A stretch of DNA of 64,000 nt, from the IMG/VR virus record IMGVR_UViG_3300003876_000001, positions 62,001 to 126,000 of that record. The stretch is one strand, 5' to 3'. A program made the position numbers and the translations under genes. The stretch comes from a virus. How positions within the stretch are numbered: position 1 is the first letter of the stretch; each line of letters opens with the position of its first letter. The notes under the pieces are model-generated. The model was not told where the DNA came from, ran no database searches, and saw only the letters and a list, made by a program, of their open reading frames with translations. Below are positions 6,619 through 62,178 of the stretch, piece by piece.

Positions 6619-7173
6619 ATGGCTAAGAAGAAAGAAAAACATATTGATTTAGAAAACCAACGTTATGGTTTATTTATGGATGATGAATCATTTGACCTTG
6701 ATGTTATGTATGGTGAACATTATTTGGATGTTGATGTGAATTATTTTGTATTAATTCATAAAATAAATATTATTGAAACCAAAACACATGATCTTTATGG
6801 ACAATCTAAAGCTAAAGATAAAAAATATTTACCACCTGTTAAAATTAATGTAATGATTAATATTGCTGAAAAGGATGGTGAATATTATGCTGGTGGTGAA
6901 GGTGGAATATCACGTGATGATACTGGTGAACTTAGAGTTAGTGTATATCTTAATGAATTAAAAAGAAAGAAACTTGATATTGATCGTGGTGATATTATGG
7001 AATTTAATCAATCTGGTGAAAAACCACGTTATTATGAAGTAGAATCTGCTCAAAATGTAGTTGACTCTACACAACAAACAATTGCTGGTTTTAAACCTTA
7101 CTGGAAGCAGATCATAGGTGTTCCAGTGAGATTGGATACTATTCCATTTTTACAAGGAGATTCATTAAAATAG
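6619..7173 (+). CDS. Putative neck protein (T4 gp14-like)
   Basis: I chose the ATG at 6619 (MAKKKEKHID); an in-frame TTG at 6607 overlaps the previous gene. 184 residues, beta-rich, with a VDVNYFVLIHKINIIETKTHDLYG region resembling the T4 gp14 neck family. It lies directly after the gp13-like gene, where gp14 is expected. It would seal the filled head and provide the tail-docking surface. Moderate confidence from context plus pattern. Confidence 0.5.
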   Translation: MAKKKEKHIDLENQRYGLFMDDESFDLDVMYGEHYLDVDVNYFVLIHKINIIETKTHDLYGQSKAKDKKYLPPVKINVMINIAEKDGEYYAGGEGGISRDDTGELRVSVYLNELKRKKLDIDRGDIMEFNQSGEKPRYYEVESAQNVVDSTQQTIAGFKPYWKQIIGVPVRLDTIPFLQGDSLK

Positions 7174-13906: not shown

Positions 13907-15679
13907 TTAAAAATAAAGACTATATTTTAAATTTCCAGAATCATATATTTTAAAATAGTTCCTTTGAATCATTATTTCTTCTGCTGTTTTATTGGGGTTA
14001 TAGCCCTCTGAAACTAATTTATCTTTTCTAAAGTTAAACCTATAAAATCTATTTAACCCCTTAACATACCAAAAATTAGGTTTGGTAATAGTTTCTAAAT
14101 TAAAACCCAATTTTTTGTACATTTTACCATCAAAATATCTTCTATCTGCATATGATATTACTTCTTCTGGTTTATAATTATTAATAAAATATTTAAATAA
14201 TTTACTTGCACCACCAATGACTGAAGTATTTAGTTTATTACAAAATCTATACATTTCATATTCACCTTCTTTTGATTTAGATTTCATTATAACCCTTTTT
14301 TTACCAAAAGTCATTAAACTAACTAATTCATTTTCATGAAATAAACCAATTCTAATGCTTGAATTTACATTACCTTGTATATGATTATTATTAAGAAATT
14401 CTCTACTTTCTTTAGAAGTTATTTCTTTTAATTCCGTTTTCCTACCAAATATTTTATTTCCTATTAATCCTAATTTAGCCTTAATTATACTTTTAACAAT
14501 GTCAGATTTATATATCCATTCGTCTTCGAAGATATGAAGTAACTGTATTCCCTTTTCTTCACATAATTCAGTTTTATCTAAATGATAATTATTAGGTAAA
14601 AACTTATCTGAATGATAATAAAGACCATTAAATTCAATTGCTAAGTTAAAATCAGGAAGATAAATATCTAATTCTTTACCATTAAGGATTTCTCTATCAT
14701 TTTCAATAATATTTAATTTTAAATCGTTTTTCAACCAATCCTTAATTTCATTTTCTTTAATTGATGATTGTTCGGAAATTGGGTTACAGATCGTACAAAT
14801 ATTTTTTACACCATATTTTATTCTATTATATAAATTATATTTATTAATTTCAAATCCATCTAAATGATTATTACAATTGTTTTTAATTTGAAAAGAATTA
14901 TCTTTTAGTGTTATTATATCTTTTTCACTAATGTTTAGTTTATTTTTCCATATTAATTTTTTATTTAATTCTAATTTTTCTTTTAAATAGATTTTATTTT
15001 TTTCTGAAGAAACATAATATTCAACACCATATTTTTTTAAATTTGTTTCTCTTATTTTTTCTTTTATTTCTTTATTTTGGAAGGGGTGTTCAACACCATA
15101 TTTTTTTAATGAAGTTTCTTTTTTCTTTTCTTGGATTATTTTTGAATTGGATAGATTTTTTACTCCGTATTTATTATAAATCGTATTTCTTTGTTTTTCT
15201 TTTATTTTTTTAGATTGAAGAGGATGTTCCACCCCATATTTTTTTAAAAAGGTGTTTTTTCTCTTTTTTTTAGTTTCTTCATTTTGTGATATATTTTCTA
15301 CACCATATTTATTTAAATTATTTTTTATTTGTTTTTGATATTCTTTTTTGTTTTTTAAACGATGTGTAGTACCATAATTTTTGATGGACGTTATTATTTT
15401 CATTTCTTTTGTTTCGTTAGAACAAGCACTACATTTAGTGGAACAATATTTACCATATCCTCTATTGTATGATAAATATTTAACATTTTTACTATTACAT
15501 TCTTTACATTTTACTTGGGTGATGATATTATTATAATAATTAAATATTTTATTTGACCATCTTATTGAATTAGGAAAATTCACATTAAATTCATTTATCA
15601 TATTTATGAATTTAATTTCATTTTTTCTTAATAAAAAAACGTAACTTAATATTTGATGTATTTTATATTTATTCTTCAT
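13907..15679 (-). CDS. EDxHD/Vsr-like homing endonuclease with YGV repeats and Mom-like C-terminus
   Basis: 590 residues. Zinc finger CKECNSKN...[10 protein letters not shown] near 57-86. It is followed by about six degenerate 24-residue repeats built on [21 protein letters not shown] (about 97-225), probably DNA-contacting helices. After [15 protein letters not shown] comes the nuclease core: [52 protein letters not shown]. The C-terminus (HIQGNVNSS...VSLMTFG...SYADRRY...[14 protein letters not shown]) is GNAT/Mom-like. Close relative of 25934-27655. Its start overlaps the RHH gene's stop, so expression is coupled to a likely repressor. Confidence 0.88.
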
Positions 15680-25950: not shown

Positions 25951-27655
25951 ATTTTAGATTTCCACAATCATAAATCCATAAATAACCAATTTCAGACATA
26001 ATTTCATTTGCTGTTTTAGTTTTATTATATCCTTTTTTTATTAAAATATTTTTATTATATTTAAATCTATATTCTCTATTTAAACTATTTTGTTTAAAAT
26101 ACCAAAAATTTGGTTTTGTTGAATGAATAAAATTAAATTTTAATTTCTCATATAAATTACCATCAAAATATCTCCTATCGGCATATGAAATTATTTGTTT
26201 TGGTTTATAATTATTTAAAAAATATTTAAATAATTTACTTGCTCCACCTATTATACTTGTATTTAATTTATTACAAAACCTATACATTTCATATTCACCT
26301 TCTTTAGACTTACCACCCATCATTTTTCTTAATTTTCCAAAGGTCATTAAACTAACTAATTTTTCATTATAAAACAAACCTAATCTAATGCTTGCATTAA
26401 CATTACCTTGTATGTGATTTTTATTAAGAAATTCTTTTGATTCTTTAGAAGTTATTTCTTTAATAATACATTTTCTACCAAATATTTTATTTTCAATTAA
26501 TCCTAATTTAGCTTTAATTATGGATTTAACAATATCAGATTTATAAACCCATTCATCCTCAAAGATATGTAGTAGTTGAATTCCCTTTGCATTTGCTAAT
26601 TCTGTTTTATTTAAGTGATAATTTTTATCTTTAAATAAATCTGAATGCCAATATAATCCATTAAATTCAATTGCTAAATTAAAATTTGGAAGAAATATAT
26701 CAATTTCTTTACCATTAAGAATTTTTCTATCATTTTCAATGATATTAAGTTTTAAATCTGATATTAACCAATCTTTAATTTCCTTTTCTTTTATTGATGA
26801 TTGTTCAGAGATAGGATTACATATTGTACATGTGTTTCTTACTCCATATTTTACTCTATGATAAAATAATGACTTATCAATTAAATATTCATCATGTTCA
26901 GTACATTGATTTTTTATTAAGTATTGACTACTACTTTTATTAACAATATTATCAACACCAAAATTTAATTTATTTTTTAATACGAATTTATTTAGTTTAC
27001 TATCTAATAATTTATTTTTAATACTTTCAACCTTCATCACACTATCAACACCATATTTTTTTAAATTAGTATGTCTTAGTTTTTCTTTAACAGATTTTAA
27101 TTTACTTGGATTATCAACACCATATCTTTTTAAATTATTACTTTTAATTCTATTCTTAATTTCATCAGATTGTATTGGGTGTTTTGTTTTATATCTTTCT
27201 AGGTTTGTTTTTTCTATTTTATTCTTAATTTCATCAGATTGAAAACAGTGTTCAACACCATATTTTTTTAGATTATTACTTTTAATTTTATTCTTAATTT
27301 CATCAGATTGACTAATATACTCAACACCATATTTTTCTTTTACAGTATTTTTAATATTATTTAATCTTTTTTCACCCTTCCCCCCACATTGTAAATTACA
27401 ATATTTTCTATATCCTTCGGTAAAAACACCTCTCCATTTAATTTCACTACCACATGTTAGACATTTTGGGATTTTTTTTATGTTATATAAATAATTATAT
27501 AATTTTTGATTAAATAACATCTTAGAATGATTTAATTGATAATTTTCAATATTATTATATAATTTAGAAAATTTTTTTTCTACGTGTTTTTCTCTAGTTT
27601 TATATCCAGATTTATTATTAGTTGTAAAATATTGTTTAAATTTTTCAATAATCAT
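25934..27655 (-). CDS. EDxHD/Vsr-like homing endonuclease with YGV repeats and Mom-like C-terminus
   Basis: 573 residues, closely related to the gene at 13907-15679. Zinc finger CLTCGSEIK...YCNLQCGGKG near 63-90; five or six repeats of the [19 protein letters not shown] type (about 100-215). The nuclease core has [43 protein letters not shown] and LLHIFEDEW. The C-terminal domain again has [14 protein letters not shown] and KPNFWYF. It separates the sheath and tube genes on the opposite strand, so it probably does not disturb late transcription. Confidence 0.88.
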   Translation of the reverse strand: MIIEKFKQYFTTNNKSGYKTREKHVEKKFSKLYNNIENYQLNHSKMLFNQKLYNYLYNIKKIPKCLTCGSEIKWRGVFTEGYRKYCNLQCGGKGEKRLNNIKNTVKEKYGVEYISQSDEIKNKIKSNNLKKYGVEHCFQSDEIKNKIEKTNLERYKTKHPIQSDEIKNRIKSNNLKRYGVDNPSKLKSVKEKLRHTNLKKYGVDSVMKVESIKNKLLDSKLNKFVLKNKLNFGVDNIVNKSSSQYLIKNQCTEHDEYLIDKSLFYHRVKYGVRNTCTICNPISEQSSIKEKEIKDWLISDLKLNIIENDRKILNGKEIDIFLPNFNLAIEFNGLYWHSDLFKDKNYHLNKTELANAKGIQLLHIFEDEWVYKSDIVKSIIKAKLGLIENKIFGRKCIIKEITSKESKEFLNKNHIQGNVNASIRLGLFYNEKLVSLMTFGKLRKMMGGKSKEGEYEMYRFCNKLNTSIIGGASKLFKYFLNNYKPKQIISYADRRYFDGNLYEKLKFNFIHSTKPNFWYFKQNSLNREYRFKYNKNILIKKGYNKTKTANEIMSEIGYLWIYDCGNLKFNYSS

Positions 27656-35656: not shown

Positions 35657-36369
35657 TTATTCTTCTGTATTTTTAAATCCAATAAATTCTTGGAAATCTC
35701 TACACGATTTTTTTATTTTTATTTTTTTAGTTTCTTCGTCAAATTCATTTTCAATTAAATCAATAATTTGTAAAACATCAAAATCAGCTTCTAATCCATC
35801 ATTATAAGGTCTTGTTATTTTAACAACTTTTTTTTCTATAGGTCTATTAAGTAGTTCAGGATCAGTTGTTAATAGAATATCAACAGAATCCCAAATCTCT
35901 TTATTGGTTTCAACAAAATGGTATTGACCTATTCTAGGCATTAATTTAGAAAGAAAAAATAATGTTGGTGGAATTGTAAACCAATTTTCTTTTGATACTA
36001 TTTTAATATCAAATTGATCTTTATATGTTTTATAAAACAATTCTAAATGTTTATCTAGACCATTATATGTTGGTGATGCTGAACCATGTATTTCAAAATT
36101 AAAATCTTCATACATAAATCTTTTATATTTTTCATCAGCAGTAACCGTTTTAGTTTCAGATTTAAATGCCATACTATCAACAGGTGCTTCACCTGTTTTT
36201 TCATCAATAGTATAATCTATTGGTGAAATATCATCAGGTAAATCTTCATTTAAAAATTTAGTTGTTTCTTCACCATCTTCCCATACATAATCATTTCTTA
36301 AATCAAATTTATATGGGTCATCTGATGATTTAATACTTCATTAATATCTATTCCTATTACTTTTTTCAT
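35657..36369 (-). pseudogene. HAD/nucleotidase-like or glycosylation-associated protein with frameshift
   Basis: ATG at 36369 gives MKKVIGIDINEVL. The frame then closes, while the -1 frame continues KSSDDPYKFDLRNDYVWEDGEE through a 171-residue open stretch whose first ATG is at 36172. The combined product has the GIDxNEV start of a small phosphatase-like family and FEIHGSASPTYNGLDKHLE, WFTIPPTLFFLSKL and DSVDILLTTDPELL, all in one frame. It appears to be a single gene with a short deletion near 36340, where about 20 residues of the expected N-terminal domain also seem absent. Located directly upstream of the GT-B gene. Confidence 0.55.
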
Positions 36370-36370
36370 T

Positions 36371-36720
36371 TTATTTTTTTATTGTTGGTATTAATATTAT
36401 TCTATCTTTTACTGTTGTAATTAGCATATCATTTATGTCATTTATTCCATCTTTAATGTAAAGAGGATCAATAGATAAATATAAATCACCTTCTTCGTCA
36501 TTTAACATTGTTTTTAAATTATTTAATGTCATTGGTGATTCTAAATCAGGTTGTATAATTACACCATTAAAATCTTCATAATATTTACATTTGTTTCAAA
36601 TATTTCAGATAATCTACTAACATTTTGTTCGATTTCTTCTCTTAATTCTGGATTATTATCTAATTTATCATTAATCCTATCTATAAATTTATGAAAATCT
36701 TCATCATTAAAATCACTCAT
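36371..36720 (-). pseudogene. Small hypothetical protein interrupted by a -1 frameshift
   Basis: ATG at 36720 gives a 50-residue acidic helical start (MSDFNDEDFHKFIDRINDKL), closing near 36570. The -1 frame continues CKYYEDFNGVIIQPDLESPMTLNNLKTMLNDEEGDLYLSIDPLYIK and ends at 36371, 2 nt before the next ATG. The junction is ACAAATGTAAAT, similar in sequence to the break at 8064-8287. Function unknown. Confidence 0.5.
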
Positions 36721-37021
36721 TTGTTTTATTATTTAATTCTTCAATTTGATTATTTAATTTTTCATGAAGTTCACTCATTAGTCTTTCATGCTTTTTTATT
36801 AAATTACTATCAGTTATATATTTAGGATTAATACAATCTACCCTACTTTCACCATAAATCGGGATAGCAATAATTTCACTATTTTCACTTACAGAATTTG
36901 AAGATATTTTATTCATAACTCTTTCCATAAATTCTTCAACAGCATCAATCTCAACATCAGCAATTGATATATAATATACTAATATTAGTTTATTTTGATT
37001 TTCTTCTGATTTTTTCATCAT
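36713..37021 (-). CDS. Conserved phage protein of unknown function
   Basis: 102 residues. ILVYYISIADVEIDAVEEFMERV followed by IIAIPIYGESRVDCINPKYITD resembles a small family near phoH in T4-like phages. Its start overlaps the end of phoH by about 30 nt and its end overlaps the next start (ATGAGTGA). Confidence 0.6.
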   Translation of the reverse strand: MMKKSEENQNKLILVYYISIADVEIDAVEEFMERVMNKISSNSVSENSEIIAIPIYGESRVDCINPKYITDSNLIKKHERLMSELHEKLNNQIEELNNKTNE

Positions 37022-38831
37022 TATGTTCTTTAAATTTATCTTCGATTTTATTTATTATTGGATTTCTAATATTTACATCTTTATCATTCATACTAATACA
37101 TCCAATTTCTTCAACATTTTTAAACATATTTAATAAAATATCTAACGAACTTTCATCTTTATTTCTTAAATCAATTTGATTAGAATCACCTAATAAAATC
37201 ATTTTACTATCTTCACCTATTCTAGTCATTAAAGTACGCATATTACCTATTGAAATATTTTGTACTTCATCAGCTATAATAATAGCATTATCAATTGATG
37301 CACCACGTGCATATGCTAAAGGAAATGGGCGAATAAAATCATTTTCCATTAATGATTTAATTTTTGTATCTGGTAATAATTTTTCAACATTTAATACAAA
37401 ACTCCAAATGAATGGTTCAATTTTTTCATTTAAATCACCTTTTAAGAATCCAATTTCTTCACCCTTTAATGTTGTTACTGATTTAACAAGATAAATTTTT
37501 AAAAATTTATTATTTTCTGCTCTTAACAAACCCAATGCTAAAGCAAGTGAAATAAAAGTATTGTGTGTTATAATAAAATTATTTGTAATATATAAATTAT
37601 CATTAGCTTCAACACTTATACATTTCATTTCCTTTTTACCAATAAATTCAATATTTTTTATATATCTAACAGGGAAATATTTTGTTTTATTTTTAAATAA
37701 ACCTTTTTTCCTATTTAATTTAAATGGAATTATTTTATTTGGTAACCTAAATGACATACTATATGAAATTCTTCCTAATTTAATTTCATTTTTATATTTA
37801 TATTTTTTTACCTTTTCTTTAATTGGGTTTATTACCCCACCTAAAGATTCTATAATAAATTTTAAATTTAAAATTAATTCTTTAGATGTACTAGTAAATG
37901 ATAATGTTCCACTTTTTTTATCTACAGTACCATCTGAATCCATTAGTCCTTGTAATAATTCAATTCTATCATTTATTGATGAATATAAATAATTATTCGG
38001 TATAAATTTATTTTCAGATTTAATACCATTTAACTTTAATTCATTAATATATTTTCTATATGAATATTTTTTGTTTGATATTTTATTTAAAATAGAATAA
38101 TCATATTTAGATGATTTTATTTTTTTTATAAAATAATCATTTGGTAATCTAGAATCACATTCATTAATTATTTGTTTATCAGAACTACTAATTCTAATTG
38201 TCGTTGTTAGTGAACCATCACCTAATAATACCCCTAATAAATATGGATCAACTAATAATTTTTTTTTCTTAAACTCAATTGCATCAACAATAGGAATTGA
38301 ATATTTCAATTTATTTGATTTATTCTTATAGTTAATGTTTATTTCAGACAATGTTTTTATTGTACCACGACTATTTTTTAAATAATTTCTTTCATAATCA
38401 TTATATGTTAACCATAAATGTTCATCACAACATTCAACTTTTGACCCATCTGAAAATGTAACCAAATATGCTTCCCTTTTTCCTTGATAAAAAACACCAT
38501 TAACTTTAGTTAATTTTCCGTTTTTACCAAATATTTTATCACCAATATTTATATTTCCCATTCTAACATAACCATTTTCAGTTAAAATAAGACTATCTAA
38601 TGGTTGTGCTTTACCAGTACCAGCAGGTCCTGAACAGATGGTTATCTCATTTCTCAATATAGATTTAATTAGGTCTTTTTGACTAACATTTTTAGCCGAT
38701 ATATTAACATCCCTGTTTAAAGCAGACCTAATTCTTTTCTTTTCATCATTAATCCTTGTCGTATTTTCGTCCCGTTCAATTGATTCTGGATCAATTGAAT
38801 TTTTTCTTTTGTTTCCTCTTTTTACTGCCAT
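36990..38831 (-). CDS. phoH: PhoH-family P-loop ATPase, intein-containing
   Basis: 613-residue precursor. N-terminal helical 60 residues, Walker A SGPAGTGK (67-74), interrupted at once by the intein. The second half has TFISLALALGLL, VTTLKGEEIGFLKGDLNEKIEPF, YARGASIDNAIIIADEVQN (Walker B) and LLGDSNQID, all PhoH signatures. The mature protein is about 263 residues, an ATPase thought to act on RNA. The promoter region shares an operator with the HTH regulator at 42689. The 3' end overlaps the following gene. Confidence 0.9.
   Translation of the reverse strand: MAVKRGNKRKNSIDPESIERDENTTRINDEKKRIRSALNRDVNISAKNVSQKDLIKSILRNEITICSGPAGTGKAQPLDSLILTENGYVRMGNINIGDKIFGKNGKLTKVNGVFYQGKREAYLVTFSDGSKVECCDEHLWLTYNDYERNYLKNSRGTIKTLSEININYKNKSNKLKYSIPIVDAIEFKKKKLLVDPYLLGVLLGDGSLTTTIRISSSDKQIINECDSRLPNDYFIKKIKSSKYDYSILNKISNKKYSYRKYINELKLNGIKSENKFIPNNYLYSSINDRIELLQGLMDSDGTVDKKSGTLSFTSTSKELILNLKFIIESLGGVINPIKEKVKKYKYKNEIKLGRISYSMSFRLPNKIIPFKLNRKKGLFKNKTKYFPVRYIKNIEFIGKKEMKCISVEANDNLYITNNFIITHNTFISLALALGLLRAENNKFLKIYLVKSVTTLKGEEIGFLKGDLNEKIEPFIWSFVLNVEKLLPDTKIKSLMENDFIRPFPLAYARGASIDNAIIIADEVQNISIGNMRTLMTRIGEDSKMILLGDSNQIDLRNKDESSLDILLNMFKNVEEIGCISMNDKDVNIRNPIINKIEDKFKEHNDEKIRRKSK
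37560..38609 (-). mobile_element. LAGLIDADG intein (Ala1, Thr+1) in the PhoH Walker A motif
   Basis: 350 residues from Ala75 to Asn424. Starts AQPLDSLILTENGYVRMGNI, with block B FSDGSKVECCDEHLW and terminal LYITNNFIITHN before Thr425. It contains the two LAGLIDADG helices LLGVLLGDGSL (about 198-208) and LLQGLMDSDGTV (292-303), so it should encode an active homing endonuclease. Ala replaces the usual Cys/Ser at position 1; Ala1 inteins splice by direct attack of the +1 nucleophile, here Thr. Confidence 0.92.
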
Positions 38832-38845
38832 ATATTAATTTATAT

Positions 38846-38861
38846 TGTCAAATTTTTGACA
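38846..38861. promoter_or_regulatory. Operator-like palindrome TGTCAAATTTTTGACA upstream of phoH
   Basis: Symmetric TGTCAAA/TTTGACA, 14 nt before the phoH ATG and downstream of a CGTATA element (38873-38878, minus strand). Same 16-bp type as the site before the HTH regulator at 43129 and the repeats inside that gene. Confidence 0.6.
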
Positions 38862-42688: not shown

Positions 42689-43129
42689 TTAATATTTATT
42701 TTTTAATTCTTCAATTCTTTTATAATCACTAATAGTTGTATCACTTTCAGGCTTATTTAAAAGATTATTTAATTCTATTTTTTCATTTTCTTCTATTGTC
42801 ACACTTGGGACAATATACTTATCTAATGTCACAGTTGGGACAATAGGATTATCTACTTGATTATCAGTACTTTCACCACTTTTTAATGTCACAGTTGGGA
42901 CAATAGAAGTATCTATTGACAAACTTGGGACAATAGATTCACGATTATCACGTTCTAGGATAGGAAAATGAATATCTTTAATAAATGGGATTCCATCTAT
43001 TTTAACATTATCTACTAAATCATCATCAACATAACGATATATCTTTCTTTTAACTATACTATATTTTTTAGCATATGTTGATAATTTTAGATATTCATTT
43101 GGGTTAATTTTTTTAATTAACTTCCTCAT
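42689..43129 (-). CDS. Small HTH (MerR/HTH_17-type) DNA-binding protein with internal operator repeats
   Basis: 146 residues from the ATG at 43129 (MRKLIKKINPNEYLKLSTYA). An earlier in-frame TTG at 43156 lies inside the operator and is unlikely. Residues 11-55 (EYLKLSTYAKKYSIVKRKIYRYVDDD, then VKIDGIPFI) form a helix-turn-helix with a DNA-reading wing. The C-terminal half is a linker of 10-residue repeats (IVPSLSI, IVPTVTL, IVPTVTL, IVPSVTI). The DNA coding for these repeats carries four 16-bp operator-like sites at 30-bp spacing. Likely autoregulated, or a replication/partition initiator. Lies between the tape measure and the baseplate genes. Confidence 0.65.
   Translation of the reverse strand: MRKLIKKINPNEYLKLSTYAKKYSIVKRKIYRYVDDDLVDNVKIDGIPFIKDIHFPILERDNRESIVPSLSIDTSIVPTVTLKSGESTDNQVDNPIVPTVTLDKYIVPSVTIEENEKIELNNLLNKPESDTTISDYKRIEELKNKY
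42797..42932. repeat. Four operator-like repeats inside the HTH gene
   Basis: 16-bp sites at 42797 (TGTCACACTTGGGACA), 42827 and 42887 (TGTCACAGTTGGGACA) and 42917 (TGACAAACTTGGGACA). Start-to-start distances are 30, 60 and 30 bp, as if one unit at 42857 has decayed. All lie on the same helical face, about three turns apart. They match the site at 43151-43166 in the promoter. Confidence 0.75.
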
Positions 43130-43150
43130 ATTCAATATTTTTTGTATATT

Positions 43151-43200
43151 TGTCAAACTTGTGACAATAGAATATACGTATATAAATAAAAAAGGTTACA
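43151..43200 (-). promoter_or_regulatory. Bipartite promoter plus operator of the HTH gene
   Basis: On the minus strand: TGTAACCTTT (43191-43200), 12-nt spacer, CGTATA (43173-43178), then the operator-like 16-mer at 43151-43166 (TGTCAAACTTGTGACA on the + strand) over the expected start point, and the ATG at 43129. The layout suits a repressor that blocks its own transcription. Confidence 0.6.
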
Positions 43201-43385: not shown

Positions 43386-43534
43386 AGGTCTATGGTTATA
43401 TGGATAAGATTTAGATTATTTAATAATTTCTATTATATACAACTCAACTAGATTTTAGAAAAAAAATATATAGTATTTAGCGATAGTACATAGTAATTCA
43501 ATGTAAATCTAATAAATTCTAATTTCAAATACAA

Positions 43535-47913: not shown

Positions 47914-48961
47914 AAGAAAAAATAAAAAATGGAATATTGAGAATATTAAAATAGAAGCATTAAAATTTAATTCGAAGACCGAATGGGCAATAAAATCGAA
48001 TAGTTCATATAAAGCATCTAAAAAATTAAATTGTTTTGAAGACTCTATTAAACATATGGAGATTTTAGGTTCTAGGTTTAAAAGATTTATTTATGTATTT
48101 GAATTTTTAGATAAATCAATATATGTTGGTTTAACATATGATCTTAGTAGAAGGAAAAATGAACATTTAACATCTAAAAAAAGTACTGTATATAAATATA
48201 TAAAAAAAACTGAATTAGTACCAATTTTTATTCAAAAAACTAAATTATTAGATAAAAAACTTGCTTCAATTGTTGTGGGTGATATTCTAGAACACTATAA
48301 TAAGAAAGGTTGGAATATTTTAAATAAAAATAAATGTGGTGCTTTGGGTTGTGGTATTATCTTTTGGACGAAAAAAAAATGTGTTGAAGCTGGATTATTA
48401 TGTAATACAAAATCAGAATTTAAAATAAAATTTGGTGGTGCATATAATTCCGCAAAAAGAAATGGATGGTTAAAAGAATGTTATAATCATATGCCAAAAA
48501 ATAGTCATTTAAAATGGACAAAAGAAAAATGTTTAATTGAGGCAAAAAAATATAAAACAAAAACTGAATTTATAAAAAATAATAGAACAGCATATAATAG
48601 TACATTAAATAATGGGTGGTTAAAAGAATGTTGTAAACATATGAAAAAACAAAAAATAAAATGGACAAAAGAAAAATGTTTAATTGAGGCAAAAAAATAT
48701 AAAACAAAAAGTGAATTTAAAAAAAATAGTTCTAATGCCTATCAAGCAGCACATAGAAATAATTGGTATATTGATATTACCAAACATATGATTCTTTTAA
48801 AAAAACCAAATAATTATTGGACATTGGAGAATTGTTTAATTGAAGTAAAAAAATATAAATCATATAATGATTTTAAAAAAAATCAACTTGGTGCACATGA
48901 TGCAATAACAAAAAATAAATGGTACAATGAATTTAAAAATATAAATCGGAATTACCGATAA
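47891..48961 (+). CDS. GIY-YIG homing endonuclease with tandem W-x-KE repeats
   Basis: 357 residues from the ATG at 47891 (MNYQGKFKRKNKKW); it overlaps the 3' end of the glycosyltransferase by 23 nt. The GIY-YIG domain is FIYVFEFLDKSIYVGLTYDLSRRKNEHL (about 70-97). Four tandem repeats follow, of the form W-T-K-E-K-C-x-I-E-A-K-K-Y-K...EF.KN...AY....N.W. A pseudogene fragment of the same repeat is at 61876-62178. Probably inserted between cluster genes. Confidence 0.85.
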   Translation: MNYQGKFKRKNKKWNIENIKIEALKFNSKTEWAIKSNSSYKASKKLNCFEDSIKHMEILGSRFKRFIYVFEFLDKSIYVGLTYDLSRRKNEHLTSKKSTVYKYIKKTELVPIFIQKTKLLDKKLASIVVGDILEHYNKKGWNILNKNKCGALGCGIIFWTKKKCVEAGLLCNTKSEFKIKFGGAYNSAKRNGWLKECYNHMPKNSHLKWTKEKCLIEAKKYKTKTEFIKNNRTAYNSTLNNGWLKECCKHMKKQKIKWTKEKCLIEAKKYKTKSEFKKNSSNAYQAAHRNNWYIDITKHMILLKKPNNYWTLENCLIEVKKYKSYNDFKKNQLGAHDAITKNKWYNEFKNINRNYR

Positions 48962-61875: not shown

Positions 61876-62178
61876 TGGACGTATGAAAATAGTAAATTAG
61901 AAGCACTAAAATATGAATTTTTACATGAATTTAGAAAAAATTCTGAAAGAGTATATAAAGTTTGTAATAAAAATAAATGAATAAAATTAAATAGAAGAAA
62001 AACAGGTGGAATTGGGAGTTGTTCTACTGTATTGGATTTTAATAGAATGAATAAATTGATTAGAAAATATGATTGTTTGGATGAATTTAAAAATGATGAC
62101 ATTGAACTATATAACATTGCAAAAAGAAGTGGTTGAGTTAATTGTTTATTTGTTTGTGAAGATTTAATGAATTTGTAA
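61876..62178 (+). pseudogene. Relic of a W-x-KE repeat endonuclease with TGA at Trp positions
   Basis: Frame WTYENSKLEALKYEF...RKNSERVYKVCNKNK-TGA-IKLN...DIELYNIAKRSG-TGA-VNCLFVCEDLMNL. Aligned to the repeats of the gene at 47891 (WTKEKCLIEAKKYK...EFIKNN...N.W), both TGA codons (61978-61980, 62134-62136) fall exactly on conserved Trp. There is no start codon. TGG to TGA decay of a defunct gene is the simplest reading. It occupies most of the 375-bp gap between the glycan cluster and the next promoter. Confidence 0.65.

Follow-up and report, generated by a model that had tools for sequence, protein, structure and literature searches.

Why should a small phage gene carry, inside its own reading frame, four near copies of the palindrome that lies at its promoter? 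The question is raised by a gene for a probable helix-turn-helix (HTH) regulator of 146 residues (positions 42689-43129, minus strand, ATG start) in a 64,000-nucleotide stretch of viral DNA, positions 62,001 to 126,000 of the record IMGVR_UViG_3300003876_000001 (138,979 bases; G000). This whole stretch is referred to as the window, and coordinates are those of the window unless otherwise stated. The reading favored here, with a probability of roughly 55%, is that its product is a small jumbo-phage autorepressor, which would bind an operator at its own transcription start site as well as an in-gene array serving as a roadblock or a sink.

A palindrome at the promoter and an array within the gene

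The putative operator at the promoter, TGTCAAACTTGTGACA (43151-43166), is an exact TGTCA-N6-TGACA palindrome with 21 nt between its end and the ATG. The ATG at 43129 is the likely start codon rather than the TTG at 43156, which falls within the palindrome. The downstream half of the gene contains four in-frame imperfect palindromes. In order of transcription these are TGACAAACTTGGGACA (42917-42932), which encodes IVPSLS and matches the promoter copy at 17 of 19 positions; TGTCACAGTTGGGACA, present at both 42887-42902 and 42827-42842, which encodes IVPTVT and matches at 15 of 19 positions in each case; and TGTCACACTTGGGACA (42797-42812), which encodes IVPSVT and again matches at 17 of 19. The initial annotation had described all five sites by the pattern TGTCAnAnTT-kGACA; this fits the sites at 43151, 42797, 42827, and 42887, while that at 42917 departs from it by one mismatch, and a further exact match to the same pattern at 38846-38861 had been overlooked. 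The spacings of 30, 60, and 30 bp and the IVPTVT-type peptides were confirmed as described. The proposal that the sites share a single helical face does not hold for the array as a whole: at 10.5 bp per turn, distances of 30, 60, and 120 bp are 51, 103, and 154 degrees out of phase, respectively.

A phage-specific promoter-like motif upstream of the regulator

A bipartite element, TGTAACCTTT-N12-CGTATA (43173-43200, minus strand), lies upstream of the regulator gene and is a putative promoter, judging by its position and recurrence. TTTG/TAnnTTTG is a promoter motif of the Bacteroidota. Because neither this motif nor sigma-70 motifs were clearly enriched upstream of 73 gene regions, a motif derived from k-mer enrichment in these 73 upstream regions, GTAACCTTT-N12/13-CGTA, was adopted. 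With the second box extended to CGTA[TA][AT], 11 copies were present in G000 (10 intergenic and 1 in a called open reading frame (ORF)), compared to 0 in 10 Markov-2 genomes. Copies of GTAACCTTT-N12/13-CGTAT(A/T) in the window are located at 43200-43173 (minus strand), 19332 (plus strand), and 19904 (plus strand). The regulator gene is also held by IMGVR_UViG_3300003877_000001 (325,854 bases; G001), a record of the same phage that is 100% identical to G000 over the compared stretches save for ~119 additional bases described below, and which contains 25 copies of the motif against 0 of the reversed control, with a spacer of 13 (18 copies) or 12 (7 copies). Among seven related records the motif occurred twice in each of two and was absent from five. 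Scored with a position weight matrix built from the other ten copies, the regulator promoter ranked first.

The promoter palindrome begins 6 nt downstream of CGTATA, apparently placing it where a start-site operator would be expected. By eye, no such palindrome was seen in the 24 nt that follow each of the other ten motif copies. Within the motif itself, an AGG-N-CCT palindrome occupies the spacer of 10 of the 25 copies (e.g. TTTAGGATATCCTAAA; G001:C1, ~137-233 kb) and is possibly an operator for a different regulator.

Comparison with chance expectation

Three exact TGTCA-N6-TGACA sites occur in the 138,979 bases of G000, whereas 40 Markov-2 simulations gave 0.05 on average and never more than 1, and TGTCA tops 60 half-site permutations for palindromes with an N6 gap. 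The looser pattern of the initial annotation has five exact matches in G000 against 0 for the reversed pattern. When up to 2 mismatches are allowed, this looser pattern is not clearly above chance, with 15 matches in the 64 kb versus 8.25 ± 3.44 and at least 15 in 6 of 100 shuffles. One more weak match to it, at position 949 inside another gene, lies outside the regulator system. Like the two exact patterns, the clustering of the sites and the resemblance between the in-gene copies and the promoter copy exceed chance. In a self-match survey of 73 genes, based on upstream words with at least four G or C, the regulator showed four in-gene matches to its upstream region, the best at 17 of 19 positions.

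Apparent conservation of the array as DNA

A plain coding repeat would offer a different account of the array, namely a 10-residue peptide repeat that arose by tandem duplication and whose operator likeness is incidental or fossil. Disordered linkers often carry such repeats, and the 30-bp period, together with the unit at 42857 that is no longer recognizable, is consistent with a ten-codon duplication followed by decay. Codon usage within the cores argues against this account. GTC encodes valine in all four cores, and the 4 GTC codons among the 12 valine codons of the gene all lie in the array; elsewhere GTC represents 6 of 781 valine codons in window ORFs of at least 200 residues and 46 of 2073 in the 143 other called genes of the record. 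Fifteen of 18 core columns are invariant, and the three variable ones fall at codon positions 1 or 2, each of them changing the residue. Among the linker columns, 8 of 12 vary and 4 of 12 are invariant. Since the reverse (synonymous drift with residues kept) would be expected had selection acted only on the peptide, the array cores look conserved as DNA rather than as peptide.

The likeness to the promoter copy is likewise beyond what the peptide requires: across 5000 synonymous recodings, the number of positions reaching at least 15 of 19 matches was 0 in 4498, 1 in 493, and 2 in 9, and never 3 or 4, compared to the four observed. A coding repeat with incidental operator likeness is judged unlikely.

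The predicted regulator protein

The protein comprises an HTH_17-like region (residues ~10-60), a disordered linker (residues ~64-111) containing the four IVP(S/T)(L/V)(S/T) units, and a helical hairpin (residues 112-145). Residues 14-52 align to a 54-residue protein of LR756500.1 with 37% identity in the aligned region. The LR756500.1 protein passes the Pfam cut-off for HTH_17 (28.2 versus 27), and the two proteins have HTH residues in common. HTH_17 (Pfam PF12728) is an excisionase/MerR-like family. The regulator differs from such proteins by the added repeat linker and C-terminal hairpin and falls below the Pfam model; residues 1-60 searched alone against Pfam yielded 0 families at E<=10 and did not reach the HTH_17 gathering cut-off. 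In a single-sequence AlphaFold2 model, the mean predicted local distance difference test (pLDDT) score was 90-94 for the C-terminal block and mostly <50 for the linker. A Foldseek search of this low-confidence model against viral structures gave no match at E<=0.001, and two matches from a PDB sequence search (E 0.11 and 0.66) were judged to be chance. The protein probably carries an HTH.

Exact palindromes elsewhere in the record

The second exact palindrome, TGTCAAATTTTTGACA (38846-38861), is intergenic, preceding the phoH ATG (minus strand) by 14 nt and a T4_baseplate-like gene (plus strand) by ~100 nt. CGTATA is found 11 nt upstream of it on the minus strand. On the plus strand the palindrome overlaps TTGTCA-17-TATATT, an overlap of little weight given that the scan found 37 promoter-like sites versus 58.7 in shuffles. 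The third exact palindrome, at G000:12034 outside the window, lies 60 nt before a gene with a sub-threshold vWA-TerF-like match (20.4 versus 29.4 bits), and by eye TTGACA, 17 nt, and then TATATT can be read there. All three exact palindromes are noncoding if the regulator starts at ATG 43129, in a record that is ~85% coding according to a mechanical ORF pick. The phoH and vWA-like genes are suggestive targets of the regulator.

The palindromes may instead be recognized by a protein other than the regulator (a different repressor of the phage or a CRP/FNR-like factor of the host), or they may act as RNA hairpins that tune mRNA stability. CRP/FNR-type sites are of the same size as TGTCA-N6-TGACA; the clustering of sites within and beside a gene for a probable HTH protein favors that protein as the reader. 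RNA of the array has a better fold than its shuffled counterparts (z -4.1; none of 200 equaled it), a score without discriminating power because palindromic repeats fold well anyway. Furthermore, if the TTGACA-17-TATATT seen by eye is the promoter of the vWA-like gene, its palindrome sits at the -35 box and is untranscribed. Both a different reader and an RNA role are considered doubtful.

Assessment of a replication or partition role

The initial annotation had raised the possibility of a replication or partition locus, in which the protein would be a lambda O-like initiator or a centromere-binding protein and the array an origin or centromere. Ori-lambda is described as having four repeats within the gene whose product binds them (PMC3985674); here there are in-gene direct repeats of one site, to which binding is predicted. 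The cumulative GC-skew minimum of the window, near 38-40 kb, would also suit an origin. The skew follows gene orientation, however: coding-strand skew is positive for both plus- and minus-strand genes in every segment holding them, and the change in skew coincides with the change in gene strand, none linked to replication being found. The recognized neighbors are phoH and baseplate genes, with no helicase or loader among them; the other exact palindromes lie between unrelated genes; and the copies drift in helical phase. In addition, the protein was unmatched in all nine related records searched and the exact palindrome was absent from all seven examined, several of which are fragments and some near-duplicates. 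Unlike lambda O, the locus has neither recognized replication neighbors nor origin evidence. A replication or partition function is considered highly improbable.

Relatives and genomic neighborhood

No clear relative of the regulator protein was found in the collections searched. A search of viral contigs with the protein, and likewise with a tight array pattern, returned the same phage only. The phage collection yielded one record (the LR756500.1 match) and the plasmid collection none. Two genomes searched with the protein gave one match at E 0.48. Among 395 genomes of one phylum, three matches (E 0.001-0.005) had internal stops in all cases and were taken to be spurious. A pattern scan of genome contigs returned 15 loci judged unrelated, mostly palindromes between genes, with a CPNCD peptide in L042. 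A looser array pattern retrieved three loci, these being the same phage and two palindrome arrays (L027 and L028) judged unrelated. In the L027 array (IMGVR_UViG_3300021387_000131, 6842-7025), the palindrome TGTCCCAAnnGGGACA is repeated six times in the stretch separating the 3' end of a 761-residue gene from the start of a 135-residue ORF. By eye, the 761-residue gene is primase/helicase-like, and the array is possibly an iteron array in another phage.

The regulator gene sits alone on the minus strand, flanked by genes for proteins of 835 and 1025 residues, neither of which had a match in a family search. The 835-residue protein is tape-measure-like by size and position only. The 1025-residue protein was found at eleven loci, one being this phage and ten having 34-39% identity; four of the ten (L014-L017) have the same identity over the same range and could represent a single phage. 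Across G001 and nine related-phage records (that of L016 left aside), the regulator was detected in G001 only, an absence that is not firm given that several records are fragments and some near-duplicates. The exact palindrome was likewise found only in G001 among that record and seven related ones, several of them fragments. In L011 (8985-9467), an HNH endonuclease occupies the slot of the regulator gene, which suggests that this slot accepts mobile genes.

Recognized flanking genes include PhoH, T4_baseplate-like, and baseplate wedge. The phage belongs to the tailed jumbo phages, its structural genes are T4-like (sheath, baseplate hub-like, and baseplate wedge), and lipoprotein-like signal peptides (LGVMSCDP) suggest a host among the Bacteroidota. 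A further element, AGTATTTA, has 52 copies in G000, 25 of them intergenic (window positions 43534, 22626, 15868, 5260, and 1406, among others). It often lies 20-36 nt before start codons, several of which belong to structural genes, and it is likely a late promoter element. The phoH gene (36990-38831) is split by a LAGLIDADG intein. Close to it, at ~36326-36580, G001 has ~119 more bases than G000 in two pieces, which may be genuine variation or stem from assembly. Genes that appear homing endonuclease-like by eye contain long tandem repeats (69-147 bp) at 48461-48791, 15020-15336, and 27114-27361. A long gene run at ~49-62 kb contains, also by eye, glycosyltransferase, sugar-nucleotide, and aminotransferase-like genes.

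Proposed mode of autorepression

Under the favored autorepressor reading, the targets of the HTH_17-like N-terminal domain would be TTGTC(A/C)CAA-like half-sites that together form the palindrome TGTCA-N6-TGACA, with the protein probably acting as a dimer joined through its C-terminal helical hairpin. With 43151-43166 occupied, the start site of the phage-type promoter that serves the regulator gene would be covered. As the protein accumulates, it would also bind the four altered in-gene copies, whereby RNA polymerase would stall on the gene or excess protein would be soaked up, adding a second layer of negative feedback. The phoH and vWA-like genes would be co-regulated through the same palindrome. 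The in-gene copies would be tolerated because the linker they encode is disordered. A more specific proposal, put forward tentatively, is that the disordered linker is a coding buffer for four DNA sites, such that one sequence would be both linker and repeated elongation roadblock or protein sink, in addition to start-site repression of a phage-specific promoter. The original suggestion that the regulator gene carries its own operator array is supported at the sequence level by the palindrome just past the gene's putative promoter and by the apparent DNA-level constraint on the in-gene copies; binding by the protein is predicted only.

Several observations weigh against autorepression by this protein. 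The whole protein has no Pfam or NCBIfam family (Pfam: 0 families at E<=10), PHROGs gives one family only (E 0.36), and the HTH relative in LR756500.1 is itself a weak match from the phage collection (E 0.9). The HTH is not confidently folded, with pLDDT <50 over most of it in the single-sequence AlphaFold2 model. In the in-gene sites, one half-site is altered (TGTCC, with the site at 42917 having TGACA as well), so that binding there may be weak. The rare codons in the four copies are not independent events, since tandem copies share descent by duplication, and both records that hold the gene represent one phage. With regard to site counts, if up to 1 mismatch in TGTCA-N6-TGACA is tolerated, the number in the window no longer clearly exceeds chance (5 versus 2.88 expected; 21 of 100 shuffles). 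Among 720 combinations of half-site and gap, one has 4 copies and one other also has 3, and the 326 kb of G001 contain 3 exact palindromes versus 1 for the reversed-pattern control. One other gene of the 73 surveyed also has four in-gene matches (15 of 19, to an A-rich word), and the count alone is not unique. As for the additional targets, the region upstream of phoH fits the phage promoter motif poorly (GTAACC box rank 127), and that upstream of the vWA-like gene lacks a phage-type motif.

Comparison with known systems

The closest case of an operator inside its own gene found in open-access text is C.Kpn2I, and others may be in print. C.Kpn2I is described as having a binding site within its own coding region; once bound there, it halts RNA polymerase transcribing that gene, and it also represses another promoter (PMC6237814). 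The likeness would lie in an HTH regulator with its binding site in its own gene; the present phage has four promoter-like in-gene sites, with both binding and roadblock predicted only. C.Kpn2I itself is related to XRE/C-proteins, and in its relatives the motif, single or duplicated, is described as lying at or near the ORF start (PMC6237814). The regulator, in contrast, is an HTH_17-like protein of a jumbo phage, with four sites in the second half of its gene and one at its promoter, and no XRE/C-protein homology was detected in Pfam or NCBIfam.

A looser parallel may be drawn with the L5-type mycobacteriophage repressor, for which the same site is reported to serve as an operator at promoters and as an elongation block elsewhere (PMC9283540, PMC6550527). 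L5 stoperators are described as 13-mers that lack symmetry and are recognized by a monomer, numbering >20 in L5 and located in short intergenic spaces (PMC9283540, PMC6550527). The sites considered here are near-palindromic, low in number, and concentrated in the regulator gene, and a large genome-wide set oriented with transcription, as in L5, was not found (139 kb contain 6 sites when up to 1 mismatch is allowed, and 326 kb contain 3 exact ones).

Autoregulators that bind within their own genes have been worked out in only a few cases. That of C.Kpn2I is presented as unique among known C-proteins, and its mode is predicted to be perhaps widespread among C.Kpn2I-like proteins (PMC6237814). 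If the autorepressor reading is true, a four-site array whose codons suggest constraint on the DNA would clearly exemplify a coding sequence molded into a regulatory element. It would also offer a feedback circuit open to direct testing and a way into gene control in a jumbo-phage lineage, with the bipartite promoter motif as an anchor.
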